Source of the DNA: Isoetes taiwanensis
Lineage: Eukaryota > Streptophyta > Lycopodiopsida > Isoetales > Isoetaceae
NCBI GenBank assembly: GCA_021234155.1
Contig: JAJEKV010000083.1
Coordinates: 462,332-526,331 of the forward strand
Direction of reading: 5' to 3'
Length of the DNA stretch: 64,000 nt
Of the stretch, positions 16,515-37,653 are shown one piece after another. The position numbers were made by a program, and so were the translations under genes. The notes beneath the pieces are model-generated. The model was not told the origin of the DNA. It saw only the letters and a list, made by a program, of their open reading frames with translations, and did not search any database. How positions within the stretch are numbered: position 1 is the first letter of the stretch; each line of letters opens with the position of its first letter.

Positions 16515-18097
16515 GTGAATATGGAAAGAAGAACTTCAGAGGAACATGCAATTGCCAATCTTTTGACTCCACAAGTCTTCAGTCTCAATTCATCAGAAAA
16601 TCATTCCACAGATCCTAGTTCTGTGCAAGAAGAATATGCAGAAGAGGTTGATGTTGCTATGGACAGTGCACTAAATCATGTGGATGATGAATCAAATGAG
16701 AGGGTAAATAGCCTTATTATGAGAAAACAACTGATTGTTTTTGCCCTCGCTTGCTATATGCAGTTTATGATGCTACTTTTCCAAGGAGATACCACAGAAG
16801 CTATCACTTATGGCTTGATCAGTGCTATCTAGTGCTTAGAGGTTCAAATGGAAGGTCTGCCAGGAGACGCCCTAATATATGGTGTTACGATAGGCCAGCA
16901 ACATTCATGGAATGTACCTTGATGCAATTTTACAGTGATGGTATGTTCAAGAAAAGGTTGAGGTTGTGTAAACAAACTTTTGAGTACATTTGCCAAGAAT
17001 TAGGGCCTCTATTAAAGCGTGAGGATACAAAAATGCGCCTCAGCATTTCTGTAGAAACTAAGGTGTGCATTGCACTATCTAGACTCGCTACAGGTAATAC
17101 AATTACAGAGATTGCAGACAATTATGCAGTAGGCTACACCACAGCCCAGCGTGCTATTTTGGATTTTTGTTTTGCTCTCAAAGAGAAATTGCACAGATTA
17201 TGCATCAAATGTCCATCAACTGAACGATTTCAAACACTTGCACAAGAATTTGAGAAATTGAAAGGCATTCCGTATGTTGTTGGTGCGATTGATGGTTCAC
17301 ATATCCCCGTTATGGCCCCAGTTGAAAGCAGAGAGGACTATTACAATCGGAAAGGGTTTTATTCTATCATTCTTCAGATAATTGTGTCCTCAAGCTGCTT
17401 GATTTGGGACTATGACATGGCCTGGCCTGAGAGTTTGCATGATTGGAAAGTGTTTGAAAGCTCAAACGCAGGGAGAAGAATTATGAACAATGGAAGATTA
17501 AAGAAATATTGTCTTGTGGGTGATGCGGCGTATCCTCCCAGGCCATGGATGTTATCGCCTTTCAAAGGTCACAAAGATGGTTTGAACATGATGGAATACA
17601 ACTGGAATTACCTCCAGTCTAGCACTAGGATGCCTGTTGAGTGCGCATTTGGGATGCTAAAGTCCAGGTTCAGAATTTTATTGAAAAGAATGGATGTCAG
17701 ATTAGAATTTGTTCCTGCTATTGTGACTGCATGTTTGATTTTGCATAACTTGTGCATCTTTCATCGAGATAAGTTTGATGATGATTGGATAACTGAAGCG
17801 ACGAAGGAATTGGAAAGATCAATTGCATCTGAGGAGACTTCTAAACGAGCAGAACGTAGATTGAAGAGATTGAAAATCTCAGGTGGCGATATTGCAAATG
17901 CTGCAGCTTATGGTATTCATGGTGTGAGAGGTGTTGACATGGATCCTCTCGAGGCCCTTGCAAGAGCTCTGGAGGAAGATGTAGAGGATGTGGTAGCAGT
18001 TTCAATAAATGGTCCGCAAAGTCAAAAGGATGCAAATGCAAGTAATACTGCTAGATGCAACGCATTGGTCAGGGCTCTATATCTTCAAACATCCTGA
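16515..18097 (+). CDS. PIF/Harbinger transposase (DDE_Tnp_4 family)
   Basis: The transposase cuts and inserts the element at TTA sites together with its Myb-like partner. The main frame opens at 16751 and ends at 18097 (448 residues). Counting from that Met, an HTH-like region spans about 100-140 (VCIALSRLATGNTITEIADNY). The catalytic triad is D181 (VGAIDGSH), D258 (LVGDAAYP) and E297 (PVECAFGMLKSRF), and the LQSSTRMPVE and LHNLCI family motifs are present. An upstream frame from 16515 (acidic N-terminus then LIVFALACYMQF) seems to be the true N-terminus, joined by a frame change near 16780-16795 before RRYHRSYH. That change could be a small intron, a real frameshift or an error. The core shows no stop or missing catalytic residue. 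Confidence 0.88.
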
Positions 18098-19535: not shown

Positions 19536-20682
19536 TCAGAGCTTCTTCACTAGCATTCCAAAATAGGAGTCGAAGCTTCGCAGCAATTCGAGGCGCTCTT
19601 CTTTCAGCTTGAGTTTGCGTTCCTCAATCTTTTCCATCTTGTCAATGAACTCCTTACGCCCGTCCTTGAGTTCTTGCAGCAATTGGCGTTTCTGATCTTT
19701 ATTGTTGCTTTTTGGATCAATTGTCTTCTCTACCTTGACCTCAACCTTCACCATCTTCTTGTTCTTGGTGTGTCGTCTCTACATTGGGTTCAAGTTTCTT
19801 ATCCATTCCGTCTTCATCCATAGCTTCTTTGGGTGCACCATCTAGCTCACTAGGTAATGAACTACCATTTCTATTGTTTGCTTCATTATCAGAATCAGAA
19901 TCCACCTCTATAGCTGCACCATGTATGGCCTTGGACACATTTGCTCTCGTGCCCATGAACTCATCAATAATGTCAAACCACTCACATGTATTTGCTCTAT
20001 CGTTCCCAGAAATGCTATTATGATGCTTATCAGCCTTGTACTCAGCATAGATGGACATCAATTTTTTCCTGCAGGCCTCTGCATCCTTGTCCAAGTCAGG
20101 ACAACGAGCAACAACACGCCTATGGACTCTCGTCCACAATTCACGCAGGTTCCCTTGTTTTGGCTTGTTGAAGTCATCAAGAAGTTCAGCTCTAGCATGA
20201 ATAAGCTGCACAGTCCACTTATCATCCCATCTAGCCCACTTACCTTTATCCTCCTTCTTGGAAGCCTTGGAACAACCTTTCCTGCTTTCTGCCTTTGGAA
20301 CCTTATCTGCAGGGTTCATGATATTTGGGACAGCACATTTTTTTGATTTGTTACTAGCAATTTCTAGTTGGTTTGGCAATGGATTAACGGGAGTTGCATG
20401 GTGAGCAGTAGGAAAGTTAGCAAGAGGCATGTTTGATCGATAAGCCTTATCAGCTTGAACAGGCTGGCTGGATGGAAATTAGTAAGGAGCAGACTGGGTT
20501 GGATAGCCTGGATGTGGCTGCTGAAATCCATGGAAGGGTGCATTGGCTGGATTGGTTGTTTGGAATCTTCTCAAAGGAAGCTTTTGAGGACCAGCAAACC
20601 CTTGTTGTACAGAAAGTACAAAGGACTGTTGATCTTCTTGAGTCTCATGAACGATTTCAATCTGTAACTTATTGCACAACAT
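19536..20682 (-). CDS. Harbinger Myb/trihelix-like partner protein (broken)
   Basis: The second Harbinger protein binds the transposon ends and brings the transposase to DNA. The minus frame from 20682 is Pro/Gln-rich (QTTNPANAPFHGFQQPHPGY). It meets a TAA at 20479-20481, continues in the same frame through Met at 20430, and ends at 19741. Counted from that Met, a trihelix/Myb-SANT domain spans about 64-160 with conserved tryptophans (KWARWDDKWTVQLI, LRELWTRVHRRV, CEWFDIIDEFMG). An acidic Ser/Asp tail follows. A second minus frame, 19754-19536, adds a Lys/Glu coiled coil (RKEFIDKMEKIEERKLKLK) and is probably the true C-terminus, one base out of frame. The TAA is explained by CAA to TAA. Convergent to the transposase. 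Confidence 0.8.
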
Positions 20683-21530: not shown

Positions 21531-22388
21531 TCATAAAGCATCTCTAGCAGCATTATCCCTACATTCCTTTAACTCTTCTTGGGCTTCCCTGATCCAAATT
21601 TCATCAAAAGCATCATTGTGAATAATACATAAGTTATGTAGAACTAAACACGCCGATACAACTAGCGGAACATGCTTCAAACGCATCTCCATTTTTTTCA
21701 ATAGTATACGAAAACGAGCTTTTAGTATATCAAATGCCCTCTCCACGGACATCCTGGTGCTAGACTGAATGAAATTCCAATGTTTCTGTATTGGGGTAAA
21801 TACTGGGCCTACATTAAAATGTGGTGTCAACAGCCAATTCCTAGCATTGTAACCTGCATCACCTAATATGCAGTAATTGCCCATTTGACCAGAGGTAAAT
21901 TTGGTGCAAGCAGATGTTCTTTCAAATAGAGCCCAATCGTGCATACTTCCTGCCCAACCAACATCGTAATCCCATATCAGACACCTGGAATCAACAATGA
22001 TTTGTAGAAGGATGGAGTGAAAGCCTTTCCTATTGTAATAATCAGGAGCATGCTCTATAGGAGCTGTTATGGGAATGTAACTGCCATCCACTGCCCCAAT
22101 CACATTGGGAATGCCATGCTTGGCCTCAAAGCCAGTTGCATATTTCTTACACGTACTCATGGAGGGCCAAATAAGACCACGATGCAGTTTTTCCTTCTTT
22201 ATTTTTATTGCCTAACAAAATTCTATAACACAAAGCTGTAGTGACGCCAACTCATATAATTCTGCTACCACGGGAAGTGTTGAACCACTTGCAAGGCGAG
22301 TCAATGCAATAGCCACTTTTTTTGGGACTTCCAAAGCCAATCTTAGGTGTGTGTTCTTCCTCACTAGCACTGGATGTAACACACTGCA
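21531..22388 (-). pseudogene. Second Harbinger transposase, 3' two thirds, split by LTR element
   Basis: On minus, 22388-21531 encodes the HTH region (VAIALTRLASGSTLPVVAEL) and the DDE core: Asp in IGAVDGSY, Asp in ILGDAGYN and Glu in MSVERAFDILKARFRIL. It is related to, but clearly diverged from, the transposase at 16.8 kb. One in-frame TAG lies at 22212-22214. At 22388 the frame runs into the 5' LTR. The missing N-terminal part continues at 35674 on the far side of the 13.3 kb retrotransposon. Both sides carry CTGCA, so this gene was intact when the retroelement landed. Confidence 0.85.
22384..22388. repeat. LTR element target site duplication CTGCA (left)
   Basis: CTGCA directly precedes the 5' LTR; the same five bases follow the 3' LTR at 35674-35678. 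A 5-bp duplication is normal for Ty3/gypsy integrase. Confidence 0.85.
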
Positions 22389-24060
22389 TGTGATGTTCGG
22401 GACGCGTATCTCACGGTCCCCGGGCGTATACCGCATCGTTGCCACGTCCGCATTACCGCCACTCCGACCGACGGTAATGCGTAACGTGTAGCCAGGTGGG
22501 TAGCCCCTAGGGGGCAACTTGCCAGAAATATGTGCAACTATTAATGTGCACATTTTCCAATGTACACATTAATGTGGGCACACATTTCCATGTGGACACT
22601 TCATGCCAAGTGGGCCACACCCTTAGGTGCAATTAATGTGCACATTTTCCAATGTACACATTAATGTGGGCACACATTTCCATGTGGGCACATTTGGCCA
22701 CCTAGCCCTTAAAGGCAAGTGGGCCCATTTCCAATTATCCCACATGCCCAAAGGGGATAATTGGAAACCCTAACCAACCCCCTTGTCTATATAGGGTAGG
22801 AAACCCTAACTTGCCCAATTTCGATTCTAGGGCTTTAGAACTCTGTTTTGGCTGCCTCAACAGCCAAAACCGCATCCTAGACTCTGCCTGGGAGAATTGC
22901 ATCCTTAGTTTCTCTTGATTCGAGCGTTTCAGCAGGATGGTCGAGCTCAGGTCAGGAGGAGCCTCTCAAGGATCAGGTATTTAGCCAATTAGATAGTCTA
23001 AACCCTATTTCAGTCATCGAATCAGTAGGTTTAGCCTCTTAGATTGCCCATAGCAGCTCTCTAGATCTCTAGATAGCAGATTCTAACTAAAGAACCTAAC
23101 TCTATGTTGTAGATTAGATCTAGTTCTTTAGTTCTCTGTGAAGTATATGGATGATGTATCTCTATGAACTCCTTGTATTGGGAAGGGGGGTAGAGACCTA
23201 AAGCTCTGTAGTTGATGCTCCTAGAGTAGCCTCTCTAGCACACTGTAGATTCGCCCGTGCACAAGAGCCATACACCGGATGTGGGTGAAGGGGCGGGCTG
23301 GCTAAGAAGGAGATTCATGTCCTGACTCTTGAACGATCCCTCTGGTGTGTAAAGCCTACCGGGGATCATTGTGACTAGGTCCAATGGCTTGTCACTGTGT
23401 GCGGGCAAGGCATGGGCTCGACACCCGTGAAGTGGTGTTCACTTTCTAGTGGGTTCAGTCGAATACGGGCAGTGGCCCTCTAGTCACCTTGAGTCAGCAT
23501 GTAGATCTCGGAGGGAGTGATCCCTACCTGCCCATCTAACCGGGAAGATGAGCCCGGGAACGGCCCTTTTGGCTATGCATCCGTGGGCTCTGGTCAGTCC
23601 CGACACTTTTCAGCCCACTCGCAAAGTGTGCACGGGAGAGGCGGATGGAGTGGACAACCCTATGCCATGTTCATATGCCGCCCAAATCCATTGCCATGAA
23701 TTACGTCCCAATGAACTCACGGAGACCCAAGCCGTCACCATCCCTTCGAAATCCGAGCCTTGGGTAGGATTCCCCTATGTGATGTCTTGATCTTTGTCGA
23801 TCAGATATAGGTGGAGGACCATCCTTCGAGATGGTCATATGATGTTGATGTATGTGCTACTGACATGTATGTTTACGCTTCAGCGGCTAGGTAGGCCCCG
23901 AGGGAGACGGGGTGCAATGACCCTTCCTCTTCCCCACGGCACCCGTCCACGCGGTTGCGATGTCATGTGAAGGGCCCCTCGTATTAGCATGGAGCTGGTA
24001 TGGGGATGAACTCGATTGTATACGGTGAGTGCACCGTGATATGAGTAGGGGGCGTCCGCG
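22389..24060 (+). repeat. 5' LTR (copy A)
   Basis: Starts TGTGATGTTCGGGAC and ends just before the PBS (here written GCGTCCGCG; ACGTCACA in cleaner copies). The clean ends TGTGACGT and ACGTCACA are an exact 8-bp inverted repeat. A ~56-base segment (ATTAATGTGCACATTTTCC...) is duplicated at 22539-22594 and 22633-22688. It matches the 3' LTR at 34006-35673 along its whole length. Most differences are small indels. Confidence 0.88.
22765..22809 (+). promoter_or_regulatory. LTR promoter: TATA box flanked by two telo-boxes
   Basis: TATATAG at 22788-22794 lies between two AAACCCTAA telo-boxes (22765-22773, 22801-22809). Transcription would start near 22820. Telo-boxes occur in plant promoters of ribosomal and other growth genes and bind telomere-repeat-binding factors. 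The same arrangement recurs in each LTR copy, for example near 34376-34420. Confidence 0.6.
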
Positions 24061-24061
24061 G

Positions 24062-24072
24062 TGGTATCGAGC
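24062..24072 (+). other. Primer binding site, initiator tRNA-Met type (copy A, one base lost)
   Basis: TGGTATCGAGC, one A short of the standard TGGTATCAGAGC seen cleanly at 37196-37207. It is complementary to the 3' end of plant initiator tRNA-Met and lies one base after the LTR end. Confidence 0.85.
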
Positions 24073-24263
24073 TATGTTCTTGGAGACCAAGAGCAAAGCA
24101 TCGCCATGTTCCCGATAGCACTAACTTGATAGGATCCTTAAACCTCGAAAAATGGGAAAAAAAATTTCTCATTTTTGTAGTTATGCTAAGCTAGTAACAG
24201 TTAAAATGAATAAAAATGTAAAAAGATTAAAAATTGGTGAGCCAACATCCAAAAAGTAGGGTG

Positions 24264-24328
24264 GTCTCACACTTGGCCAGGGACGAAAAGCGAGATTCTC
24301 GAAATGGGGGTGGGCTTAACGTGTGAAC
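24264..24328. repeat. Palindromic hairpin repeat 1 (copy A)
   Basis: Degraded member of a ~67 bp family with the plan GTCTCACACGT-CGCGCC...CGAGATTCTCG...GGGCGC-ACGTGTGAGAC. The outer arms pair, GCGCC pairs with GGCGC, and CGAGATTCTCG pairs with itself. The clean equivalent in copy B is 37400-37466. Confidence 0.75.
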
Positions 24329-24452
24329 ATTCAAACTTTGACACCAAAAAAAAGTTGTAAATTACAATAAAATAACTTGGTAATTCTAATTTTAAACTAA
24401 GAATCGGTAGAATTAGCATGTTACATGTTAATTTAATAGTGGGTCCCACCAT

Positions 24453-24519
24453 GTCTCACACGTCGCGCCAGGACCAAAAATGAGATTCTCAAAATCGGGC
24501 TGGGCGCAACATGTGAGAC
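24453..24519. repeat. Palindromic hairpin repeat 2 (copy A)
   Basis: GTCTCACACGTCGCGCC... ...GGGCGCAACATGTGAGAC; second of the pair before the histone cassette, about 75 bases upstream of its TATA box. Confidence 0.8.
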
Positions 24520-24594
24520 CTTGCTTAATTAGGTGTTTTAGATGCTTTAAGTAACCCAAAAAGGTAATTAAAAGTTGACCTAAAAAGTGGCCCC

Positions 24595-24603
24595 TATAAA
24601 TAG
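24595..24603 (+). promoter_or_regulatory. TATA box of histone H3-like cassette
   Basis: TATAAATAG, 107 bases before the ATG, after the two hairpins and with a C-rich initiator-like stretch at 24611-24632. It suggests a promoter separate from the LTR. Confidence 0.6.
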
Positions 24604-24701
24604 ACCTAGACCCCTCCCATTTTTCGTGTTCTTCCCTAGAACTTTGCTCGTGCTCGCCAAGGCGATCTTCTGGCGCTTAGCTCCGATCGGCAAACCACCA
24701 A

Positions 24702-26016
24702 ATGATGGCCCGCACCAAACAAACTGCAAGGAAGCCTAGCCGAAGCGGATCCTCCAGCGCCAGTGGCTCCGGCCTATTTCAAAGGGTCCTTCGAGAACGC
24801 CTTCTCCATGAAGGCGAATCTTCTTCGAGCGAGGAAGCGGGATCGGATCGGAGCGACCGTACAGAGCTCGTAGAGGACGACCGGCCGGACATCATGCACC
24901 AAATCCTCGAAGAGATCGCACAGGAGGAGGGAAGAAGCAAGGAGGAGCAGGAGCAGATAGGGGCGCCAAGAAACCAGGGAGCAGCCTGGGAGGACACCCG
25001 CCCCACAGAGGAGAAGCGGCAGAAGCGGACCAATCAACAGCCCAAGAGCAAACCCAGGTTGAGACCCACCTGCAAGAAGGGCAAGGAAGAGAAGAACAAA
25101 GAATAAAGACTCAAATTCAGCGGAGGAAGCCGACCTTGCACGCTTCATCAGCAAGTATGAAGCCAAAGAGCGCCGCCGGGAGCAGAGGACGAAGAGTCGG
25201 GAAGACGACCCGACCACAGTCAGCGGGTTGAAGAAGAGGAAGGCCAAAGCCATAAAGGCAGGCAAAAGGAAAGTGGTGAAGGTCGGGAAGCGAGCAGTAG
25301 GTCCCGTCATCAACGAGCCGTCAGGAGAGGAGACCCCGCCTACTACCGACGACTCGGATGAAGACTACGTGCCAGGCGCAGAGGGAGCAAGCTCTTCAAA
25401 ACCCCCGGTCGTAGAGGAAGAAACCCCGGCGGGTGCAGGCAGAAAGGGAGGAGGCGGGAGCGGTTAAGCCCCACCTTTCCCAACGTGGGATAGGGTTAAA
25501 GCCCCGCGACCCCAACGGGAGACGTATGTGATAGACCCTGTCAAGGTCTATCAGAAGAGAATTAGGGAGCACAACTCCTATATGGAGAAGTGGGAGGCAT
25601 ACAATGCCTACTTTCAGGAGCATCGGGTGAGGACAGTTGAAGGTGGAGTACCCCCGAAGCAGACCTTGAAGCCACCGCCACCCAGGCCCAAGCCTCTCCG
25701 AGCACCAGGTAAGAAGCGGAGCAAGAAGAAGAAGTTGGAGGACAGAGCCCTTAAGGAGATCCGCCACTTCCAGAAGAGTTACGGACTCTTGATCCCCCGG
25801 GCGCCGTTCCAACGCTTGGTTCGTGAAGTAATGCAAGAATACAACACGGACATGCGAGTAACCGACGAAATGTTGCTGTGCCTACAGGAGGCAGCAGAAG
25901 CAAAAATAGTGCAGCACTTCGAAGATTCAACGGCCTGCACGGTGCACGCGAAGAGGGTTACCCTCATGAGGCAGGATATGTATCTTGCCAGGCACATCAA
26001 GGGAGAACGCCCTTGA
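24702..26016 (+). CDS. Histone H3-like protein encoded by the retrotransposon (copy A)
   Basis: This is a full H3-type histone with a very long insertion between tail and fold, about 430 residues against 136 for normal H3. Two ATGs (24702, 24705) precede ARTKQTARK, identical to H3 residues 1-9 including K4 and K9; residue 10 is Pro instead of Ser. A Ser/Glu/Lys-rich linker follows, with an acidic [10 protein letters not shown] motif near 25345. The C-terminal 91 residues (25741-26013) align to the H3 fold without gaps: [57 protein letters not shown]. Equivalents of H3 C110, H113, R116, D123 and L126 are kept. About half the fold residues match canonical H3 as I remember it. LLIP.APF and RVTLMR recall CENH3, but loop 1 has canonical length. 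Copy A has a frame change near 25090-25200 and a stop at 25465; the linker is noisy. Confidence 0.85.
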
Positions 26017-26159
26017 GATTTTGTAAATAACTGTAAAATTTTGTTAATATAAAGAATTTTTGTGTAAATAAAGTGTCAGACCTTGTTTAAATAAGTTAAG
26101 ATATCGATCCCTAGCTTTTGTTTTAGTTAAATTGGAGCTTTGAGCAAAATTGAGACGAT
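26016..26159 (+). terminator. 3' UTR and poly(A) signals of histone cassette
   Basis: The AT-rich tail after the stop contains AATAAAG at 26067 and TTGTAAAT/TGTTAATAT elements typical of plant poly(A) regions. The cassette therefore may end its own transcript. The downstream hairpin 3 follows at 26160. Confidence 0.5.
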
Positions 26160-26226
26160 GTCTCACACGTCGCGCCAGGACCGAAAACGAGATTCTCAAA
26201 ATGGGTGCAGGCAACGCGTGTGAGAC
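26160..26226. repeat. Palindromic hairpin repeat 3 (copy A)
   Basis: GTCTCACACGTCGCGCCAGG... ...ACGCGTGTGAGAC; first of the pair before cassette 2. Confidence 0.8.
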
Positions 26227-26358
26227 CATGCCCAAAAATGCCCAAAACAGCTCCAAATCGACCAAATAAGGGGTCAATTCTGCCTAACTCGACGAGTTTA
26301 GTGGAATTACAGCCTTAGATCACTTAAATTGAGTAAGCCTAGCCCAATTGGGACCCAT

Positions 26359-26425
26359 GTCTCACACGTCGCGCCAGGACAGAAAACGAGATTCTCAAAA
26401 TCGGTCTGGGCGCAACGTGTGAGAC
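26359..26425. repeat. Palindromic hairpin repeat 4 (copy A)
   Basis: GTCTCACACGTCGCGCCAGG... ...GGGCGCAACGTGTGAGAC; second of the pair before cassette 2, about 180 bases upstream of its TATA box. Confidence 0.8.
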
Positions 26426-26603
26426 CTCATACCATTTCTTCACTAAATGATCTCCAAATTGTACAATAGGTTCAGTAGTTGTTCTTAGCATGCTCAAACC
26501 CTAGAAATAGTCTTCAAACTTGCAATTGCATCCCTTAATAGATCAGAATTGCCTAATCTCAGTAAATTCTAGGTCATCCAAAAATTAGGGTTTTCCCCAA
26601 TTC

Positions 26604-26650
26604 TATATATAAGTTCCCCCATTTCTCATTTAGCACCCTGCAAATTTGCT
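26604..26650 (+). promoter_or_regulatory. TATA box and leader of cassette 2
   Basis: TATATATAA at 26604-26612, followed by a CT-rich leader. The leader then carries GGCGATCTTC and GGCGCTT (26664-26690), the same words found in the leader of the histone cassette at 24661-24680. The two cassettes therefore share a promoter-leader design. Confidence 0.6.
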
Positions 26651-26726
26651 CTCCACTGCTTAGGCGATCTTCCAGATCCCTGAGGCGCTTCTGCATCCGT
26701 CTGTTACTCCCTTCTTTGCTAGATCA

Positions 26727-28149
26727 ATGGCCATTAGCGACTTGGGCGATGGTGCAAATACAAATGCCCATGTCTTCTTAGAGGCGGATGTCAACGACAT
26801 CTTCCAACTCTTTGGGAAAGAAATTGACATCCAAGCTACGCTAAATGCAACCCCATCATATAGGCAAGTGCTAGCAGAGTTTCAGACTAGGGTAGGACCC
26901 TCCCTTGTTCAGTCCCCCTTGCATAGGATATTTCGTTCCCGGCCATCCTTCAAGCAACCTTGGGTGATGTTCCTAACATCGCCAAGTACTTAACCAACAA
27001 GGCGCCAGAGACTCGCCTGACTACATGGTCCTGACAGCCAATAGGACCACCGCCGCCCTAGCCATCTTCTTATCCCACCAATAAAACCCGATGGGGGCAA
27101 CCTCTATCCCTCCGATGGAGGTGAACCCCATAGCAAAGGTAAGAGGAAGAGCGGATGCTTTTGCAAGATCAACAGAACAAGAGGCAAGAGAAGGAGAAGA
27201 GGGCCGGACGACGAGGAATACACCTGAGCTCGACTCGCAGGCAAGAACGGGCGCCAAGGGCTAGGCATCAGAAAGCTGATCAACTTCGAAAGGAGCCGGG
27301 CACGCATATCCATCCGGAACCTTCCCCGCGGGGAGAGGGAGCTCGTGTTGGACGAATCGCTCCACCAACCGCGGCGGAACCGACGTGGACGACTTCATCG
27401 TCCGGGAGCCTCGGACTTTCCGCTTCAAGTCAGAGAAGCCGACACCTTACACTGTGGGACCTCCGATATCCGTGCCTACAAAGCAAAGATCGGGCAAATG
27501 ATGGACGGCGGAGCTGCCAACAGAGGAGGAGTTCCTCGCCCTCCAAGAACAGATGGGGATCCGTGGGAAGACCACGAGCATCCTAATGCCCAGGCCTTCG
27601 ACACCACCCCCGGCAAGAGGAGAAGGAATCGACCTCAGGAGGGTCGACCGCACAATTGAAGACTACCGGGAGCTCACCGAGATAGAGGTCGACGAGTACG
27701 CCGGGCGGCACAGAACAGGAGGCCAAGCAAGTGGAGAATCATCCGCGACGCACAAACGGAGTCGCCAGTACTACTTGCCGCTGCTGCTGGATGGGAGAAT
27801 AGCGGTAATACACCGCAAGTTCAGTCCCAGAGGAGAGGAAGGGGTGTTCATGCTGATTGCACTCTCGGGCTTCGGCAGGCATGCTCGCATAGCGGCAAAT
27901 GTTGACTATGCTGTCCTGGTCAAGAGGGCAATGGCACTCGACCTCTTTGACTTCGCCATACCCCATCGGCGTCGGCGAGATTGGTGGATCGCGCGGCCCT
28001 TACATCCGACGCGGGTAGAAGACTTGGTGAGAGCCTTACAGGGACGCTCGTCGGCAAGCATCATCAGGAACTTGGGTCACTCGGTAGGGACGGCCCAAGT
28101 TAAGAAGTTTCTTGAAGACAACCCGTCTTACCGGCGATTTCAAGACTAG
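26727..28149 (+). CDS. Unrecognised protein, cassette 2 (copy A)
   Basis: I do not recognise this protein. It starts MAISDLGDG at 26727. The N-terminal part (DVNDIFQLFGKEIDIQATLN, then a region with FLSHRAENPMG in copy B) is followed by an acidic Glu/Gln-rich stretch and a basic RR/KR tract. The C-terminal ~198 residues are open from 27553 to 28149 (RSRQYYLPLLLDGRIAVIH, EGVFMLIALSGFGRHARIA, VKRAMALDLFDFAIPHRRRR). Frames change around 26990-27550, where sequence noise is high. It shares promoter, leader and hairpin pair with the histone cassette, so the two are probably expressed alike. It does not resemble H4, H2A or H2B, nor gag or an envelope protein with membrane helices. A partner for the H3-like protein is only a guess. 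Confidence 0.6.
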
Positions 28150-28300
28150 TTAGACTCTTGGTCCCGGAGACTCTTTTTGTACTAAAATATTATATGATAT
28201 ATAAATACAATTCTGTTGCACTTTAAATGTTTTGTTGATGTATTTTGCCCCACAATTATACCAACAAACATAAACAATGCAAGAGAACAAAGGAAACTAA
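28150..28300 (+). other. Spacer between cassette 2 and gag
   Basis: AT-rich spacer with TATATGATATATAAATA (28190-28207), which could be the poly(A) region of cassette 2 or a start signal for gag. An ATG at 28276 opens only seven codons before TAA. Confidence 0.4.
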
Positions 28301-29700
28301 CCATATAGCCATGAATCACTTGTGGATGCAGCTAGAGGCCTAAGCGCAGGGGAACGACAACTGCGAGACCTTATAGAAGAACGGACCCCGCCCAGACCAC
28401 CCCCGGCAAGGAACGTGTTTGAAGATATGGAACCCATGACCCCAGAGGAGGAGATATCCCAGATGAGGACGGACCTTGAGCAGATAAAGGCCTTGTCGTC
28501 CGCACTGCGTGAGCAGTTCGGTGGGCAATGCTCAATTGCCACAAGCATCGCTCCCGAAAACAGAAGGGACAAGAAGAGGAGCAAGAGAAGGAGATCCCCC
28601 AGCTCGGATTCCTCAGACTCAAGTTCGAACTGTCGGACTCGAGGAAGAAGAAGAGCAGGCCCAAGACCGAACAGAAGGAAGGCAAAGGAACACTGAAGAG
28701 GGAAGGCAGAGGAACACCCCAGAAGGACGACAAAGAGACACCAGGGCCTCTGACTACCAGAAGAAGGTAGATTCCGCACTGGGCAATGTATGGAAGGCCC
28801 TGAATCGAAACAGGCCTCGGGGAGAACAGTCGGATTGGAAGTAGAGGCATGGCTGGACGAAATGAGTGAGTACGGCAATGCTTATGGCATGAAGGATAAA
28901 GATAAAGGAAGAGTGGCAACAGCCAACTTGAAAGGAGCCGCACGGATTTGGTGGAAGGGTTATGCAAAGGCACATGGCTTAAGCAGGGATGCTTGTAAGT
29001 TCAGGAAGTTTGCTAAAGCCTTCAAGCACCATTACGTCCCAAGGGAACATAAGTCCAGCATGATGCAGCAGTTCTATAGGTTGCAGCAAGGCAACAAATC
29101 AGTCCAGAAATATACAGAAGAATTCATGAGGCTAAGACTGTATGTGCCAAAGTTGGGAGAGAAGCATGCAGTTGAAAGTTATATTGAGGGGCTGAATGAG
29201 GAGATCCGCAAGCTTGTGAGGGCAATAAACCCTAAGACAGTATCGGAAGCAGAGTCCAAGGCTATAAGCTTGCAGGGGTCGGGACCTCAGAATAGCGGCG
29301 CGAAGCGGCCCGTATTTCCGGGATAAAGGCAAGGCGACAGAAGCTATAGCCCTAGGGCAGCCGATCCGTGTCCAAATAGAGCCTCGCATGGTGGAAACCA
29401 GGGAAACAAATAGGAGAAGAAGCGGTGTCCTTCAAGGACAAGCGGGAGGGTCAAACTACCCAAAGCGGTCGCGATCCTTTTTGCGGCGATGCCCAAGGAA
29501 AAGAGACAGAGTGCATAGAAAAGCAGCTTTTGCTTCATGTGCTTCCAGCGAGGCCATAGGACGCCAAACCGCCCCACGTCATGAGTGCAGCTCTAGCGGA
29601 GTTGGGAGATTGGGACGCCTGTCCGACGACGACGGGCGGCGAAGCCCGCGAACTACATTCGTGGTGAGTGCCATATCTTTGCCGCAATAGATACGAAGCA
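28301..29700 (+). CDS. Gag polyprotein (copy A, frameshifted)
   Basis: Gag forms the particle that packages the element RNA. The frame after a TAA at 28298 has no ATG start until internal ones. It begins HESLVDAARGLSAGERQLRD, then a Pro/Glu region and a Ser/Asp/Glu-Lys tract. The retrotransposon gag core follows (EAWLDEMSEYGNAYGMKDKD, GAARIWWKGYAK, FAKAFKHHYVPREHKS, YTEEFMRLRLYVPKLGE, SYIEGLNEEIRKLVR) up to about 29290. A zinc-knuckle-like Cys-x2-Cys-x4-His lies at 29531-29557, its last Cys not visible in this noisy stretch. Frames shift at about 28600-28780 and 29290-29530. Copy B gives the same core at 42634-43016. Confidence 0.8.
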
Positions 29701-29953
29701 AGCGTAAAAGCCGATTATAAGGTAATTTCCACGGTAGGAAAGGCCAAGACCAAGTCCTTCATAGTCTTGATAGACTCGGTGAAGTAGCCATAACTTTGCA
29801 TCCCCGTAATGGTTCAAATGTTGAAGTTGAAACCATTGAAGTCAAAAGCCAAGGCCCGTCGCCTTAGCAAGTGGTGCGGTAAGGCGCATTGCGGCAAAGA
29901 GAATTAACCGACATCGACTTGCCGTGGATTAATATCCGGATGGGGCAGAAGTA
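29701..29953 (+). CDS. Aspartic protease region (copy A, broken)
   Basis: The frame reads ...KSFIVLIDS and then shifts. The Asp-Ser of the retroviral-type protease active site (family pattern D-S/T-G) sits at about 29769-29774. In copies B and C the following bases differ by small indels, so the Gly and the flanking loop are scrambled. It cleaves Gag-Pol in the particle. Too damaged here to judge activity. Confidence 0.55.
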
Positions 29954-31230
29954 ATGGGCATTGGCAAGTATGACTTGATCATAGGAATGGAGTACCTTGG
30001 ACCAGCAAGGGCCATTATCGATTGTGGAAAGCGGAAGGTGACCTTCCCAACACCCGACGGCAAGATCATTGAGATAACAGGTAAGGAAGTTGTTCCCATC
30101 ATGCAGTGTATGTCTTCTAAACGGCTATTCAAGTGCATCAAGAGTGAGCAAGTGGCATACATCTTCAAGCTTGAGATTAGTGAGCCAGAATCGGAAGGAA
30201 GCAAAGAAGACAAAGTGCTCAGCAAGTTACCCAAGCAAATAGCTAAGCTGATCACGGAGTTCCATGATCTCTTTCCAGATGAGATCAAGCAGCTTCCTCC
30301 CTATAGGGGAATCGAGTGCGAAATAGCACTCGAACCGGGAACAAAGCCAACAAGCAAGGCTCCATATAGAATGACAACGCAGGAGTTGTCAGAGCTAAAG
30401 AAGCAGTTGCAGGAGCTGCTTGACCTAGGTTTCATTAGACCTAGTGTTTCGCCATTTGGAGCGCTCATTCTCTTTGTAAAGAAGAAGGATGGCAGTTTAA
30501 GGATGTGCATAGACTACAGGCAGTTGAACAAGCACACCATTAAGAACAAGTATGCGCTCCCCAGATCAGATGACTTGATGGATCAGCTACAAGGAGCAAG
30601 AATCTTCTCCAAAATCGACTTAAGGTCAGGGTATCATCAGATCAGGATAAAGGAAGAAGATATCCATAAGACTGCCTTCAGAACGCGGTATGGGCACTAT
30701 GAGTTCACGGTGCCCCCGCGACGTTCATGAGGCTCATGAACGATATCTTCAGGGAGTTCCTAGACACCTTTGTGATTGTTTTCTTTGATGACATTTTGGT
30801 GTATAGCAGATCCCTTGAAGAGCACGTACAACACTTGAGAAGAGTGCTGGAGAAGTTGAAGAGGCACCAGTTGTACGCCAAGTTGTCGAAGTGCCACTTC
30901 GCAACAGAGAAGGTGGAGTATCTAGGTCATGTGATCTCGATTAGAAGGCATCTCGACGGATCCTCGCAAAAGATTGAAGCCGCCATTCGGCCGGCTACCA
31001 AGAATGTGCATGAAGTCAGAAGTTTTCTACGGCCTTGTGGTACTACAGGAAGTTCGTGAAGAACTTTGCCAAGATAGCGGCCCCGTTAACAGACTTGACG
31101 AGGGCGGAGAAAGTAAAAGATTGGGCGGAGCATTGGCACAAGAAAGCCCAAGCAGGGTTTTAATTGTTGAAGGAAGCTTTAACAACCGCCCGGCCTTAAC
31201 CCCTATTGGGACCCGGGAAAGACAAGCTTG
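29954..31230 (+). CDS. Reverse transcriptase (copy A, frameshifted)
   Basis: From 29954 the frame has the linker before RT ([18 protein letters not shown]), then RT blocks: [70 protein letters not shown] and [12 protein letters not shown]. The frame breaks at 30715, where the PFGLxNAP block should be: about 22 bases are missing, joining EFTV to AP-ATF. It resumes with [12 protein letters not shown], the catalytic FFDDILVYS (YxDD box) and GHVIS. The same deletion is in copies B and C. Further frame changes lie near 30940-31060. As written it cannot make a full RT. Confidence 0.85.
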
Positions 31231-31590
31231 TAGCGGCGACACGAAGTAAGATAGCTACAAAGTGCGGTGCTTATGAAAAGAAGAGCGCGCGTGGTAGCGT
31301 ATGATTCCGGAAGATGAACGGCGCCGAAACACGCTACCACACGCATGATCAGAATTGCTTGCGTTTGTCGGGCATTAAGAATTTGGAGGCACTACCTTTT
31401 GGGAAGGAAGTTCCAAATTGGATACGCACCACCGTAGCCTCCAATATGTATTCACGCAACCACACCTCAACCTGAGGCAGAGAAGGTGGATGGAGTTCCT
31501 TGAAGAGTACGACTTTGATATAGTCTACAAGCCAGGGAAGCTCAATGTGGTAGCGGATGCGCTTTCAAGGCATCCCCTGACAACTAGAGT
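31231..31590 (+). CDS. RNase H domain (copy A, frameshifted)
   Basis: Broken frames from 31240; the C-terminal part is clear from 31418: [20 protein letters not shown], then [20 protein letters not shown]. The catalytic TDH.SLQ segment is frame-shifted here but clean in copy B (45043-45360: [20 protein letters not shown], then [10 protein letters not shown]). It removes the RNA template after reverse transcription. Confidence 0.8.
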
Positions 31591-32660
31591 GCATTGCAAT
31601 GCAATTTCGACCCTCTCCAGCGACTTTGGTAAGAAGATTGAAGATTCCTTGCCAACGGATGTGGATTTCAGGGAAGTATGGGCAAGCCTCTCTAAGGAGG
31701 CTAGAACAGATAAGGAGCGGGAAGCCTTTAAACATTATAAGAAGGAAGGCAACCTGTTGTACCATAAGAATAAGTTGTGCGTACCCGAATCATCAGGGGT
31801 AAGGAAATTGATCCTCCACAACACGCACAACAGCCCAATAGCTGGCCATGCGGGATTCATGAAAACATATTTCAAAGTGCGCAACAGCTATTATTGGCCA
31901 GGAATGAAGAAGCAGATAGCTCGCTACATCAAGGAATGCCACTATGTCGTGAGAAGGCGAAGCGAGCTTAAATTCCAGGAGCTTTAGAGCCATTAGCGGT
32001 GCCAAATGCTAAGTGGGAGGTGATTAGCATGGATTTCATCACAGGACTCCCAAGGACCGTAAGAGGGAAAGATGCTTTGATGGTAGTAGTCGACAAGTTG
32101 TCGAAAATGGCACATTTTATGCCTTGCAAGACCACGATATCACGACTATGGATACTGTGAAGCTCTTCACCAAAGAGATCTTCAGGCTTCATGGCATGCC
32201 AAGGGAGATTATCTCCGACAGGGATCCGAAGTTCATGAGCGCCTTTTGGCAAGACCTCTTTGCGACAATCCAGACGAAGCTATCCATGAGCACGGCATAT
32301 CATCCTTAGACGGATGGCCAAACGGAGCGGACCAACAGGATTTTGGAAGACATGCTACGAAACTATGTCTGGAATAAGCAAGGTATGTGGGAAGAATTTA
32401 TTCACTTGGTGGAGTTTGCCTATAATAGCACCAAGCAGGAATCATCCCAAATGTCGCCGTTTATGATCAATTACTGCTATCGCTTGCCTAACTCCGCACA
32501 ATTTGGCACAACCCCGTGTCCAAGGTGGAAGTTTCAGCGGCCAGATGTTGGCCGATATCGCGGCAAACTTGTGGAAGAAGTTCGAGGGTATCGCTAGCAG
32601 CAAGAAGTCGACAAAAGAGCATCACGACAAGCATCGAATCGGTAAGAGAGTTCAAAGTTG
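31591..32660 (+). CDS. Integrase (copy A, contains TAG stop)
   Basis: The HHCC zinc-binding N-domain ([15 protein letters not shown], then YIKEC, with the CxxC damaged) leads to the DDE core: Asp in [10 protein letters not shown], Asp in [14 protein letters not shown] and Glu in [12 protein letters not shown] at 32307-32309 interrupts it between AYHP and TDGQTER, where CAG to TAG is the likely change; copy B has the same TAG. The C-terminal GDDVWLK region follows near 32660. It inserts the element DNA with a 5-bp stagger, matching the CTGCA duplication. Confidence 0.85.
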
Positions 32661-33070
32661 GAGATGATGTTTGGCTCAAGATCAAGGTGAAGCGGTGGCT
32701 CGGGATCGGAATTGCAAGAAGCTTGCTCCAAGGTGGGCTGGACCTTCCGAGAATAGTCAAGAGAGTAGGTAACCAATCCTACAAGCTAGACTTGCCAAAG
32801 ACACCTAAAGATTCATAAGGTCTTCCACGTGAGTTTGTTGAAGAAGCATACTCCAAATCCGGCGAAGTCTTGGACACTCCAACGATGTTGGAAATGATGG
32901 AGGAGCAAAATTGGAAATAGTTCCGAAATTGATTCTTGATAAAGCCTTCAAGAAAACGAGGAGATCGAATTCCTCCAAAGATTTGGTCAAGTGGAAACAC
33001 TTACCGCTGGAAGACGCGACGCGGGTACTTAAGAAAGATTTAGTAAAGCAAAGACCCCAGCTTTATGGAG
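32661..33070 (+). CDS. Integrase C-terminus with chromodomain (copy A)
   Basis: After the GDDVWLKI and [18 protein letters not shown] segments and a KVFHVSLLKKH-like link, the frame from 32911 reads [20 protein letters not shown], then [13 protein letters not shown]. This is the chromodomain pattern of gypsy chromoviruses (ILDK.....R....LVKW.GLP.EDATW). Chromodomains of this kind bind methylated H3 tails, chiefly H3K9, and steer integration to heterochromatin. Position at the end of integrase is standard. Aromatic cage residues cannot all be checked because of indels. This is the reading domain for the same tail that the element's own ORF1 carries. Confidence 0.75.
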
Positions 33071-33992
33071 CAATGGGGCGGCAAGGTCATCTCCAAGAAA
33101 TCGGCTCAGGGCATGTCGATTCGTGTAGATTAATTCTATGTATAGTTAAGATTAATCTACGCATGCAACCTATGCTAGGTATGGGTCGCATGCGTTCTAC
33201 CATGATGGGACCACTACGGTGATCTCTAGGGCGTGGTGTAATGTCAATGTAGGCATGACCGCGTTTTAAACTGAGCGAAAGTGGAAGGTAGATTAGAAAG
33301 TCTACTTACGTCCTACTAAGTAGCAGACGACCTCGAGAGAAAGGAGGTCATTAAGGAATGCATTGATAGGAAAGGCACCTTTAGCCCCATATATGCTTTG
33401 ATAGGAGGAATCGGCCTTCACGCCCACATACCGGGAAGGACCTATCCTCCACGCCAAGGCAACTAGGGTGTAGGCATGAGCGGCATATAGGCATATAGGC
33501 CGTCTCCACGACCATAATAGAAGATTCACCCTCTTCCTCTGGCGGAGATTAGCCATGCATCCATGTAGATAGGTGGGGTGGTCACCATATAACTAAAATT
33601 TTTATTAATAATTAAATGATACTAACGTGGTGTCGACCATATGAGCCAATAGAGCCCCCTGAGAGGGCAAGGAGGTCGAAGCTCAGAAGACTTGCAACAC
33701 AAATTTTGTTGGAATGTGTTGCAAGGAATGAAGAGACCTCGGACGTTAATTTTAATTTTGATAAACTTAATTGTCATGTTAAGTGAATTTTTGAGTAACC
33801 TGTTTTAATGATGTTATGAATTGATAAGTTATTTCATAATATAATGGTGTGATAATGTCCTAAAAATATTACCTTAAGGTAATCTTAATAAATGTGTAAA
33901 TACTATAGTAGCTATCGTATGTATCAGGTTGATTGCAGGTTAGGATGATCCCAAGGTGGGGAGACCCACGATGTTTGCGACGACATCATTTC
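33071..33992 (+). other. 3' non-coding region of the element (copy A)
   Basis: Contains short GTAGATTAATTCTATG / TAAGATTAATCTACG repeats (33124-33164) that can pair as a stem, and AT-rich sequence with ATATAATGG near the end. No ORF is supported. Confidence 0.5.
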
Positions 33993-34005
33993 AAGGTGGG
34001 GAGAA
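33993..34005 (+). other. Polypurine tract (copy A)
   Basis: AAGGTGGGGAGAA directly before the 3' LTR; primes plus-strand synthesis. Copy B: 47764-47775. Confidence 0.8.
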
Positions 34006-35673
34006 TGTGACGTTCGGGACGATAATGTCCCCGCGATCTATACCGCTTCGCTGCGTCACGCCGCATACCGCCACTCCGACCGGCGTGTGCGCTAACGCAG
34101 AGCCGGGTGGGTAGCCCCTAGGGGGCAACTTGCCAGAAATATGTGCAACTATTAATGTGCACATTTTCCAATGTACACATTAATGTGGGCACATATTTCC
34201 ATGTGGACACTTCATGCCAAGTGGGCCACACCCTTAGGTGCAATTAATGTGCACATTTTCCAATATACACATTAATGTGGGCACACATTTCCATGTGGGC
34301 ACATTTGGCCACCTAGCCCTTAAAGGCAAGTGGGCCCATTTCCAATTATCCCACATGCCCAAAGGGGATAATTGGAAACCCTAACCAACCCCCTTGTCTA
34401 TATAGGGTAGGAAACCCTAACTTGCCCAATTTCGATTCTAGGGCTTTAGAACTCTTTTTTTGCTGCCTCAGCCAAAACCGCATCCTAGACTTCTGCACCG
34501 GAGAATTGCATCCTTAGTTTCTCTTGATTCGAAGCGTTTGTTGGGATGGTCGAGCTCAGGTCAGGAGGAGCCTCTCAAGGATCAGGTATTTAGCCAATTA
34601 GATAGTCTAAACCCTATTTCAGTCATCGAATCAGTAGGTTTAGCCTCTTAGATTGCCCATAGCAGCTCTCTAGATCTCTAGATAGCAGATTCTAACTAAA
34701 GAACCTAACTCTATGTTATAGATTAGATCTAGTTCTTTAGTTCTCTGTGAAGTATATGGATGATGTATCTCTATGAACTCCTTGTATTGGGAAGGGGGGT
34801 AGAGACCTAAAGCTCTGTAGTTGATGCTCCTAGAGTAGCCTCTCTAGCACACTGTAGATTCGGCCTGTGCACAAGAGCCACACCGGGATGTGGGTGAAGG
34901 GGCCAGACTGGCTAAGAAGGAGATTCATGTCCTGACTCTTGAACGATCCCTCTGGTGTGTAAAGCCTACCGGGGATCATTGTGACTAGGTCCAATGGCTT
35001 GTCACTGCGTGCGGGCAAGGCATGGGCTCGACACCCGTGAAGTGGTGTTCACTTTCCAGTGGGTTCAGTCGAATACGGGCAGTGGCCCTCTAGTCACCTT
35101 GAGTCAGCATGTAGATCTCTGGAGGGAGTGATCCCTACCTGCCCCATCGGAAACTGGGAAGATGAGCCCAGGAACAGCCCTTTTGGCTATGCATCCGGCG
35201 GGCTACAGTCAGGTCCCGACACTTTTCAGCCCACTCTGCAAAGTGTGCACAGGAGGGGCGGATGGAGTGGACAACCCTATGCCATGTTCATATGCCAGCC
35301 AAATCCATTGCCATGAATTCTGTCCGCAATGAACTCTGGAGACCCAAGCCGTCAGTCATCCCTTCGAGTCTGAGCCTTGGGTAGGATTCCCTATGTGATG
35401 TGCTGATCTTTGTCGATGCAGATAGGTGGAGGACCATCCTTCGAGATGGTCATATGATGTTGATGTATGTGCTACTGACATGTATGTTTACGCTTCCGTA
35501 GCTAGGTAGGCGCTGAGGGAGATGGGGTGCAATGACCCCTTCACTCTTCCCACTGGCACCCGTCACGGTTGCAGTCTCATGTGAAGGGCCCTGTATTAGC
35601 ATGGAGCTGGTATGGGGGATGAACTCCTGTTTGTATACGGTGAGTGCACCGTATATGAGTAGGGGACGTCACA
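34006..35673 (+). repeat. 3' LTR (copy A)
   Basis: 1,668 bp, TGTGACGT ... ACGTCACA. It has the same TATA/telo-box block, duplicated GTGCACATTTTCC segment and 3' end as the 5' LTR. The near identity of AT-rich parts implies a recent insertion, but noise prevents dating. Confidence 0.9.
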
Positions 35674-35678
35674 CTGCA
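35674..35678. repeat. LTR element target site duplication CTGCA (right)
   Basis: Matches 22384-22388. Confidence 0.85.
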
Positions 35679-35930
35679 CAACCATTCAAAAGTTGCCCGT
35701 GAAACCCACATCTTCTGACAAAACATTCTATCCGTGTGACTATGTGACAAGATGTTTTCGTAGTATCCTTCTATGCGCTTGTACACCCAACAACTCCTTT
35801 GCTGCCTTGTCATGAAAGTCATCTTTTGTACCAACTCGAGCACTTGCACACATGCATACATGTATCTCTTGGATGGTGGCGCCTCGCTGGGCCTTAACAT
35901 CTCCAACATTATGAAGGACTGCAATATTTG
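35674..35930 (-). pseudogene. N-terminal part of split Harbinger transposase
   Basis: On minus, 35924 down to 35674 encodes MLEMLRPSEAPPSKRYMYAC, then RSCWVYKRIEGYY and RMFCQKMWVSRATFEWLC. This aligns with the region just before the HTH in the 16.8 kb transposase (RRRPNIWCYDR, MFKKRLRLCKQTFEYIC). The protein continues at 22388 on the other side of the LTR element. Repeated in flank copies B (from 49409) and C (from 62903). Confidence 0.8.
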
Positions 35931-35949
35931 GCATATTTGTAGAAGGTTG

Positions 35950-36980
35950 TGTCAAGTGCTTGGACCCATTGGGAAACAAAATCCTGAAGACAAATTAGAA
36001 CACAAGACGTGAGAATGGGCAACCGAGGAAATGATCTCAGCAGGCATGACTATGTAACAAGCTGGCCATGATACAACAGGCTGAAATAAGTCAAACTGAA
36101 GATAAAGATATGCATCTACCAAGTTAGATGCATCTTTTAGAAGCATCTTGACATTTGTTGATACAAACTTCCTTGTGTATCCTAGGTGGAGTGCATTAAA
36201 ATATAAATGGGGTCTTAATTAATTAAATAGCATAAATAGTAGTACAATGGTTTCAGTTAAAAAAAGAGCTTAAAAAGGTAACAATATGTTGAGAGCCAAG
36301 TTACCTTTTAAGAATAGTTATCCACCTTGAATGCAAGATGGACTCAAGTCTTTTGTCTTCGAACTGCACAAATCCTTGGGCTTCATGGAATCCTCCTGGT
36401 CCCCTGCAACATCCAGCAACTCAAATCATATCTTGTTCATGCAAACAAACAATATGGAAGAGATCCCAAAGACCCAAAAACATGGCTGTTAAGGCCACAT
36501 TTGCTTAGCCCTTGTTGAATAAAGAACTGTATGGTTTGACCTGTGTTACCAAAGGACTAGGAAAACAGTTTTCAGGATATAGAAGGAATACCTAACAGCT
36601 TTAAGTTATAACTCTCACCTGACAACTCAATGTTGTAAAATAAAACCTTAAGGCCAGCGACCAAGAAATGAATAACCCTGCTATCCTCATGTATAATCTA
36701 ACTAATACTTTTTATAGTATCCTTGGTTAGTAGAACAAGGTAGTGACTGGAAACAAGAGCAGAAACTTACTGCATAGGATACTGCAGCAATGTGAATCCA
36801 GTAAAACAAGAACCAAGAACCAAGAATTGGAATCTTATGATATAAATTACACAAAAGACTTGCAATTGTTCGTATAATGAATCTAATGCATGCTACTTTT
36901 AAAACATTCAGTTCTGCATATGCTGTCATAAGTCTGTACATATTTTTAGAAATAGAAGGCATCACTGACTCTTGTACAAT
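35950..36980 (-). other. Phase-consistent exon chain on minus, unrecognised host gene
   Basis: Three minus-strand segments have splice signals and agreeing phase. One is 36685-36619 (ends with donor CAG/GTGAGAG; reads DSRVIHFLVAGLKVLFYNIE). The second is 36403-36326 (acceptor GATGTTGCAG, donor CAAG/GTGGAT; reads DQEDSMKPKDLCSSKTKD). The third starts at 36181 (acceptor CCACCTAG; reads YTRKFVSTNVKMLLKDASNL, then VDAYLYLQFDLFQP) and runs to a stop near 35954. An earlier hydrophobic segment at 36965-36760 ends at GTAAGT. I do not recognise the protein. The order places it upstream of the Harbinger element on the same strand, so the transposons may sit in an intron or 3' region of this gene. Confidence 0.4.
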
Positions 36981-37023
36981 ACTTGGGCATTCAGAATAGA
37001 TGAAAAAGGATAAGGGTTTTACT

Positions 37024-37194
37024 GAGGTAGGCCCTGAGGGAGACGGGGTGCAATGACCCCTTCACTCTTCCCACTGGCACCCGTCACGGTTGCAGTGTCA
37101 TGTGAAGGGCCCTGTATTAGCATGGAGCTGGTATGGGGGATGAACTCCTGATTGTATACGGTGAGTGCACCGTATATGAGTAGGGGACGTCACA
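37024..37194 (+). repeat. Truncated 5' LTR end (copy B)
   Basis: Last 171 bases of the LTR, ending ACGTCACA; the junction with the flank is at GGTTTTACTG/AGGTAGGCCC (about 37020). The start lacks TGTGACGT. Confidence 0.85.
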
Positions 37195-37195
37195 G

Positions 37196-37207
37196 TGGTA
37201 TCAGAGC
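37196..37207 (+). other. Primer binding site (copy B, clean)
   Basis: TGGTATCAGAGC, complementary to the 3' end of initiator tRNA-Met. Confidence 0.9.
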
Positions 37208-37399
37208 TATGTTCTTGGAGACCAAGAGCAAAGCACTGGCCATGTTCCCAGTAGCACTAACTTGATAGGATCCTTAAACCTCGAAAAATGGGAAAAAAAA
37301 TTTCTCATTTTTGTAGTTATGCTAAGCTAGTAACAGTTAAAATGAATAAAAATGTAAAAAGATTAAAAATTGGTGAGCCAACATCCAAAAAGTAGGGTG

Positions 37400-37653
37400 G
37401 TCTCACACGTCGCGCCAGGACCGAAAACGAGATTCTCGAAATCGGGCTGGGCGCAACGTGTGAGACATTCAGCTTTGACACCAAAAAGTTGTAAATTACA
37501 ATAAAATAACTTGGTAATTCTAATTTTAAACTAAGAATCAGTAGAATTAGCATGTTACATGTTAATTTAATAGTGGGTCCCACCATGTCTCACACGTCGC
37601 GCCAGGACCAAAAATGAGATTCTCAAAATCGGGCTGGGCGCAACATGTGAGAC
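37400..37653. repeat. Hairpin pair before histone cassette (copy B)
   Basis: Two 67-base palindromic units, 37400-37466 and 37587-37653. The first is the cleanest member of the family: GTCTCACACGTCGCGCCAGG at one end, CGAGATTCTCG in the loop, GGGCGCAACGTGTGAGAC at the other end. Confidence 0.85.

Follow-up and report, generated by a model that had tools for sequence, protein, structure and literature searches.

A histone H3 fusion gene in chromodomain Ty3/gypsy retrotransposons of Isoetes taiwanensis

Three copies of the element in the window

The window (the whole 64-kb stretch of DNA that was analyzed) contains, from 22300 to 64000, three copies of an LTR retrotransposon in a row, designated A, B, and C, with flanks partly common to them (Table 1). 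In all likelihood the host is a lycophyte, not a fern; the earlier note on this DNA had proposed searches of fern and other plant genomes. The sequence 3' of the 3' LTR of copy A is repeated 3' of that of copy B, and the 5' LTR of copy B measures about 170 bp. These common flanks and the shortened LTR suggest a tandem duplication of the element together with its flank, rather than three insertions. The two LTRs of copy A differ by a K2P distance of 0.075; its 3' LTR has the termini TG..CA (TGTGACGT..ACGTCACA), and the ends of its 5' LTR have diverged.

Table 1. Positions of the element features within the window
Feature	Position	Strand	Remarks
Copy A, target-site duplication CTGCA	22384-22388 and 35674-35678		flanks both LTRs
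Copy A, 5' LTR	22389 to about 24055	+	from self-alignment; starts TGTGATG; end approximate owing to diverged 3' end
Copy A, PBS	24062-24073	+	degenerate, TGGTATCGAGCT; from self-alignment
Copy A, palindromic hairpin repeat	24453-24527	+	about 70 bp; upstream of H3 ORF
Copy A, TATA box of H3 ORF	24595-24602	+	TATAAATA; 110 bp 5' of ATG
Copy A, start codons of H3 ORF	24702 and 24705	+	ATG at each
Copy A, H3 ORF, first part	24705-25106	+	tail and N-terminal linker; closed by stop
Copy A, exact H3 tail, residues 1-9	24708-24734	+	ARTKQTARK; read from sequence
Copy A, H3 ORF, remainder	25120-26016	+	second frame, linker and fold; in-frame stop at 25465-25467
Copy A, histone H3 fold	25741-26013	+	alphaN to C terminus, last residues GERP; Pfam PF00125, 6.3e-28
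Copy A, hairpin repeats 3' of H3 ORF	26160-26234; another at 26359	+
Copy A, ORF1 (second novel ORF)	26727-28149	+	broken
Copy A, gag	28427-29323	+	PF03732, Ty3_capsid
Copy A, protease and reverse transcriptase region	29489-30897	+
Copy A, integrase and chromodomain region	32029-33130	+	domains identified in related copies
Copy A, 3' LTR	34006-35673	+	followed by CTGCA at 35674-35678
Copy B, PBS	37196		TGGTATCAGAGC
Copy B, H3 ORF	37839-39149	+	broken
Copy C, H3 ORF remnant	51655-52752	+	diverged, broken

The earlier note had described an ORF, placed between the primer-binding site (PBS) and gag, that joins an exact H3 tail, a linker, and a gap-free H3 fold. The placement holds, with the PBS at 24062, the H3 ORF after it, and the gag match from 28427. 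The tail and the gap-free fold are likewise both present in copy A, but they do not lie in a single ORF. The tail frame runs for 133 codons to a stop at 25104-25106, and the second frame, from 25120, reaches a stop after 115 codons, 5' of the fold. H3 sequence occurs in all three copies; A and B, which the note set beside a scrambled C, are also broken, with identities to the intact proteins of 55-67% for copy B and 32-37% for copy C. No ATG-started ORF of at least 120 aa combines tail and fold anywhere in the 64-kb window. A profile search of the kind that the note had proposed returned Pfam Histone for copy A at 6.3e-28, spanning 25582-26013, and the fold is identical to plant H3 at 50 of 92 residues without gaps.

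On either side of the H3 ORF, copies A and B have a repeat roughly 70 bp long (GTCTCACACGTCGCGCC..GGCGCAACGTGTGAGAC), at 24453, 26160, 26359, 37400, 37587, and 39296. Its predicted folding energy is -30 to -44 kcal/mol, and it contains ACGT and CGCGCC cores, which we take to resemble those of cell-cycle promoters. An Rfam scan of 22300-40000 gave nothing at gathering score. The ORF1 ATG of copy A is preceded, at a distance of about 120 bp, by a TATATATAAG box. Elsewhere in the window, the ORFs at 16907-18097, 19741-20430, and 21531-22160 presumably correspond to a PIF/Harbinger transposase and its Myb-like partner, and the minus-strand ORF at 10338-11666 to a leucine-rich-repeat receptor-like protein.

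The H3 ORF and its carriers across the genome

The genome search covered 1,658,258,908 bases in 1110 contigs. Tail, linker, and fold stand intact in a single frame of 400-451 codons at 27 of 65 distinct places (loci L001-L078), a count that required the tail within two substitutions and that is not a rate, 40 stretches having been taken from the list of fold matches, mostly with long open frames. The single-frame protein of the earlier note, broken in the window, is thus found elsewhere in the genome. A stop-free fold is present in 143 of the best 150 of 9253 candidates, 39 of these having an open frame of at least 400 codons. A degenerate 11-residue tail pattern, which also accepts Ser at both Arg places, matched 419 genomic places, and the reversed-pattern control matched none; the 45 matches inspected share one 10-residue reading in 26 spellings. 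Chance is excluded by the exactness of the tail, by the Pfam score, and by the number of copies.

In these proteins, referred to as class 1, a linker of about 300 residues with basic stretches separates the tail from the fold, whereas a host H3 has 136 codons including Met. PF00125 matched class 1 at 1.1e-27 and the class 2 proteins described below at 2.5e-41. The 60 best PDB matches listed all carry H3 names, with H3.3/H3.1 at the top, and CENP-A is not among them. For the linker, no relative was found at E<=1 among 7999 candidates scored. A protein search gave 2506 proteins, of which the 120 listed cover 29-40% of the query; the top three (P0001-P0003) proved to be strings of repeated histone pieces and were rejected as relatives. 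Among viral contigs, 15 tail-pattern matches were obtained and none was confirmed. The AlphaFold models are poor, with a mean pLDDT of 53.7 for class 1 and 43.4 for class 2.

Pieced together from several copies, the class 1 element reads LTR, PBS, H3 ORF, ORF1, gag, protease, reverse transcriptase (RT), integrase, and chromodomain. Pfam matches to such pieces include PF03732, PF08284, PF00078, PF00665, and PF00385 (1.7e-10). TG..CA LTR ends, the CTGCA duplication, and the PBS TGGTATCAGAGC in copy B are marks of chromoviruses, and we take the PBS to be of the initiator-tRNA type. Neither terminal inverted repeats nor a hAT transposase was encountered, and LTR retrotransposon genes stand in their place. 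At least 30 of 110 protease-RT matches are preceded on their own strand, at no more than 8 kb, by a class 1 H3 match (of the best 150), the distance being 3.80-3.93 kb in 20 of the 30. In this lineage of LTR retrotransposons, which are of the chromodomain Ty3/gypsy type, the H3 ORF is the first internal gene, and it has a TATA box of its own.

That box (CTATAAATA) lies 108-112 bp 5' of the ATG in 27/27 intact copies by scripted count. Of the two ATGs in the double start ATGATGGCC, the first is missing in 7/27 copies and the second is present in all 27; since the second is always kept, the product would begin M-A-R-T. Removal of the initiator Met would expose the true H3 N terminus, ART. The 11-residue tail is identical in 23 of the 27 copies, and the other four carry one change each (two A7T, one R2C, and one T after K9). 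At position 10, which is S in H3, 26 copies have P and one has T.

In the chromodomain of one copy (L037:8108-8692), inspected by eye at the HP1 cage positions, aromatic residues are missing at two of the three cage sites. In type II chromodomains, the aromatic cage is lost at the first and usually the last site, according to the part of the survey available (PMC6317226), and the element's chromodomain looks like this type. ORF1 has no Pfam match, and the protein search returned a single homologue, P0121, from a 2007-base contig (45% identity over 99% of the query). Because the best of 86 matches scored for P0121 in this genome is only 52% identical, another species is the very probable source of P0121, in which case the lineage would not be confined to this one.

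A second class of element emerged from a search with canonical H3, in which the best 150 of 9064 candidates fell into two groups: 15 at 96-98% identity, which we regard as host genes, and 135 at 71-86%. Eight of the 135, chosen for long frames, were examined, and all eight are intact ORFs. The class 2 protein opens with a conserved N-domain of 190 aa; a variable linker follows, and then an H3 fold that runs from about KPHRFRPG and is about 86% identical to host H3. It starts M..TK, mostly MA.TK, and is otherwise without the ARTKQTARK tail; MA.TK may be a relic of ARTK. With a class 2 query, at least 102 places were scored out of 12410 candidates, at 77-100% identity, and 68 of them are stop-free.

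In the one class 2 copy studied with its flanks, an LTR is homologous to the class 1 LTR (158 bp at 83%, 4.6e-34), and a similar LTR end is accompanied by the PBS TGGTATCAGAGC. About 200 bp 3' of the H3 ORF in this copy lies a homologue of ORF1 with one stop inside (two-sequence search: E 2e-12 at 55 bits, with about 26% identity across 283 residues). ORF1 is found 190-427 bp 3' of the H3 ORF in at least 48 of the 102 class 2 places, as judged from the best 150 of 4045 candidates. Class 1 gag and pol pieces were unmatched in the three stretches around one class 2 copy (L099, L100, and L101), and none of 15 class 2 places compared, out of 102, lies near the 110 RT matches of class 1 type. Homology of the class 2 protein itself to ORF1 was considered and is unsupported (probability 0.2%).

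Constraint on the H3 proteins and their proposed role

Pooled Nei-Gojobori dN/dS over the 27 intact class 1 ORFs (pS 0.40-0.47; L061, with an aberrant linker, retained) is 0.070 for residues 1-13, a figure lowered by requiring the tail in sampling, 0.20 for the linker, and 0.035 for the fold, for which dN is biased downward because the copies of both classes were taken from lists ordered by fold identity. In three parts, the linker gives 0.26, 0.20, and 0.12. Internal branches yield 0.038 for the tail, 0.32 for linker 14-230, 0.13 for linker 231-326, and 0.034 for the fold, and terminal branches yield 0.18, 0.29, 0.14, and 0.053, respectively. Class 1 pairs whose folds diverge by 0.3-0.6 at fourfold sites show a mean residue difference of 4.2-5.7% in the fold vs. 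22% elsewhere. In class 2 (eight copies), dN/dS is 0.078 for the N-domain and 0.031 for the fold. Selection of copies by fold identity or tail does not touch the figures for the class 2 N-domain or for linker 231-326. In the sampled copies, both the class 1 and the class 2 folds are under strong purifying selection.

This constraint bears on a hitchhiking account of the gene, in which a pseudogene of a host H3 became trapped in the element and has been copied passively ever since. Such an origin would suit the many broken copies, including all three in the window, and the count of 39 copies with both a stop-free fold and an open frame of at least 400 codons in the best 150 of 9253 candidates. 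It is already contradicted, however, by a fold dN/dS of about 0.035 at high synonymous divergence, on internal branches too, and by the conservation of the TATA box, the module, and its spacing, and hardly any credence can be given to it. The three outcomes that the earlier note had named beforehand as fatal to its proposal did not come about. Further elements in the genome carry the ORF (27 intact ORFs at 65 places and 419 pattern matches), the fold's dN/dS of 0.034-0.053, for copies drawn from a list ranked by fold identity, is not near 1, and the many copies and strong fold constraint exclude a one-off host H3 pseudogene.

The reading that we favor, at a probability of roughly 55%, is that the H3 fusion pairs with host H4, enters nucleosomes in the manner of a histone variant, and anchors its N-terminal regions on chromatin. 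The fold would pair with host H4, and the pair would be placed in nucleosomes as a variant histone is; the element-specific N-terminal region, perhaps along with the partner ORF, would thereby be held on chromatin. Such anchoring might benefit the element, either because silencing is resisted or because sites are marked for the chromodomain integrase. Both classes join a sizeable foreign N-terminal region to the fold and have a partner ORF as well, and this shared architecture points to anchoring more than to tail display.

Tail display is the essence of another proposal, in which ARTKQTARK on a long charged arm acts as a decoy that occupies the K4/K9 readers and writers of silencing, with the fold serving for nuclear or chaperone retention. 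The tail's sequence lends this some weight, being identical in 23 of 27 copies and one residue off in the other four, constrained at a pooled dN/dS of 0.070, and represented by 419 pattern matches. Against this, class 2 has the same architecture with no tail beyond MA.TK and an equally constrained fold; because the tail is missing there, its mimicry cannot be the whole function. Moreover, the replacement of S10 by P in 26 of 27 copies and by T in one may weaken K9 readers. We regard a decoy as unlikely.

C110, H113, D123, and L126 of the H3-H3' interface, reported as retained by the earlier note, are indeed kept in the window fold and are invariant in the 27 intact class 1 copies as well. Class 1, to which the window copies belong, is altered at R63, K79, K122, and R129, which read P63, N79, Q122, and H129. 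Class 2 keeps R63, K64, R69, R72, R83, and K122 in 8/8 copies, residues that serve as DNA contacts in canonical nucleosomes. The alpha2 chaperone site reads EMLL in class 1, FAIL in class 2, and SAVL in the host; some viral H3s thought to enter chromatin have TAIL there, according to the available part of a review (PMC9145170). Given the residue losses of class 1 and its EMLL site, the host CAF-1/HIRA routes may not take it. Thus, both would pair with H4, and class 2 at least would enter nucleosomes via host routes; for class 1 a different route may be required, perhaps by way of the linker.

The same residues could be read as those of a non-nucleosomal protein that binds H4 or a histone chaperone and so impedes the deposition of host nucleosomes on newly made cDNA or on element DNA. 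Class 1 would suit such a sink, keeping the H3-H3' residues while the DNA contacts R63 and K122 and the alpha2 chaperone site are changed. Class 2 would not, since its DNA contacts are kept, as expected of a nucleosomal histone, and the sink seems a doubtful explanation overall. A still less probable role is packaging, in which the protein and Gag would compact cDNA within the particle, comparable to the histones of marseilleviruses, for which compaction of viral DNA has been proposed in the available part of the review (PMC9145170). The position of the H3 ORF 5' of gag and the basic stretches of the linker would be in keeping with this role; the element pieces scanned gave no match to H4, H2A, or H2B, however, and the near-host fold of class 2 suggests host partners.

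Anchoring through nucleosomes may also be extended to a more speculative proposal. Here, the element would write and read its own mark, the H3-fusion nucleosomes at or near its copies being recognised by the integrase chromodomain or the partner ORF. We hold this to be improbable as it stands. If it were true, new copies would be directed to chromatin that the element had marked itself, or would remain active there, and the fusion would be the parasite's equivalent of a centromere-specific histone. According to the available part of a 2019 survey (PMC6317226), no partner of type II chromodomains has been identified. The element's chromodomain looks like this type, and its own H3 is a candidate for that partner.

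Origin, significance, and known systems

Mean fold differences are 42% between class 1 and host, 14% between class 2 and host, and 43% between the two classes. In the fold tree, class 2 joins the host H3s and class 1 lies far off on a long branch. All 35 element folds (27 class 1, 8 class 2) share Y54F and A135P, which are absent from the 12 host loci. From these two residues and the shared architecture, and against the fold tree, we infer that the element H3 gene descends from one captured host H3. CENH3 has a longer loop 1 between alpha1 and alpha2; an origin from CENH3 is rejected on the gap-free alignment with H3 at loop 1 and on the ranking of the 60 best PDB matches listed. With two diverged classes that both carry a constrained H3 fold and a homologous ORF1, the H3-fusion gene and its partner gene are an old, selected module of these elements.

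Transposons are usually viewed as targets of host chromatin, and here a lineage keeps a gene for a central chromatin protein. Its products form a natural set of H3s in which about 300 residues separate tail and fold and several important residues are lost, and they thereby ask what an H3 needs. For the type II chromodomains of plants, they also supply a specific candidate as partner. In genome annotation, the hundreds of element-borne H3 folds may pass for host histone genes in Isoetes taiwanensis. The published repeat library was purged of repeats similar to plant proteins, according to the portion of the genome paper available (PMC8566536); H3-bearing elements may therefore stay unmasked and be annotated as genes.

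Histones on mobile DNA are already known from DNA viruses and from one fungal hAT transposon. Among the papers listed in searches of the open-licence literature, none showed an LTR retrotransposon with a histone gene. Plant chromoviruses share gag, protease, RT, integrase, the chromodomain, and the PBS type with class 1; the available parts of three papers describe no H3 gene in them, whereas class 1 has two extra genes 5' of gag (PMC6317226, PMC3350952, PMC2864245). A close parallel is H3L of the Pyrenophora tritici-repentis hAT transposon, likewise a mobile element that amplifies an H3-like gene next to genes of its own, the long form of which has a further ORF of unassigned function alongside, as ORF1 is here (PMC3538342). 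That element is a DNA transposon with 26 very similar copies, and the accessible part of the paper describes no selection test (PMC3538342). In contrast, the Isoetes elements are LTR retrotransposons in two diverged classes, at hundreds of places, with long N-terminal regions and strong constraint.

Single H3s of large DNA viruses are thought to be derived from the host and to enter host nucleosomes, and some are N-terminally extended, as in DSLPV1 with 53 extra residues (PMC9145170, in part). In the available part of that review, such extensions, in DNA viruses, amount to tens of residues (PMC9145170), vs. about 300 in class 1. Bracovirus CvBV-H4 is another extended-tail histone on mobile DNA and, according to the same partly available review, is incorporated into host chromatin; it differs in being an H4 rather than an H3 and in acting in the parasitised insect (PMC9145170). 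CENH3 also joins the H3 fold to a divergent, longer N-terminal part, but the element H3 has no loop 1 insertion and is element-encoded. Measured against these systems, as far as the available parts of the sources extend, what is new here is the LTR retrotransposon as carrier, the 300-residue N-terminal region, and the occurrence of one partner gene in both of two diverged classes.
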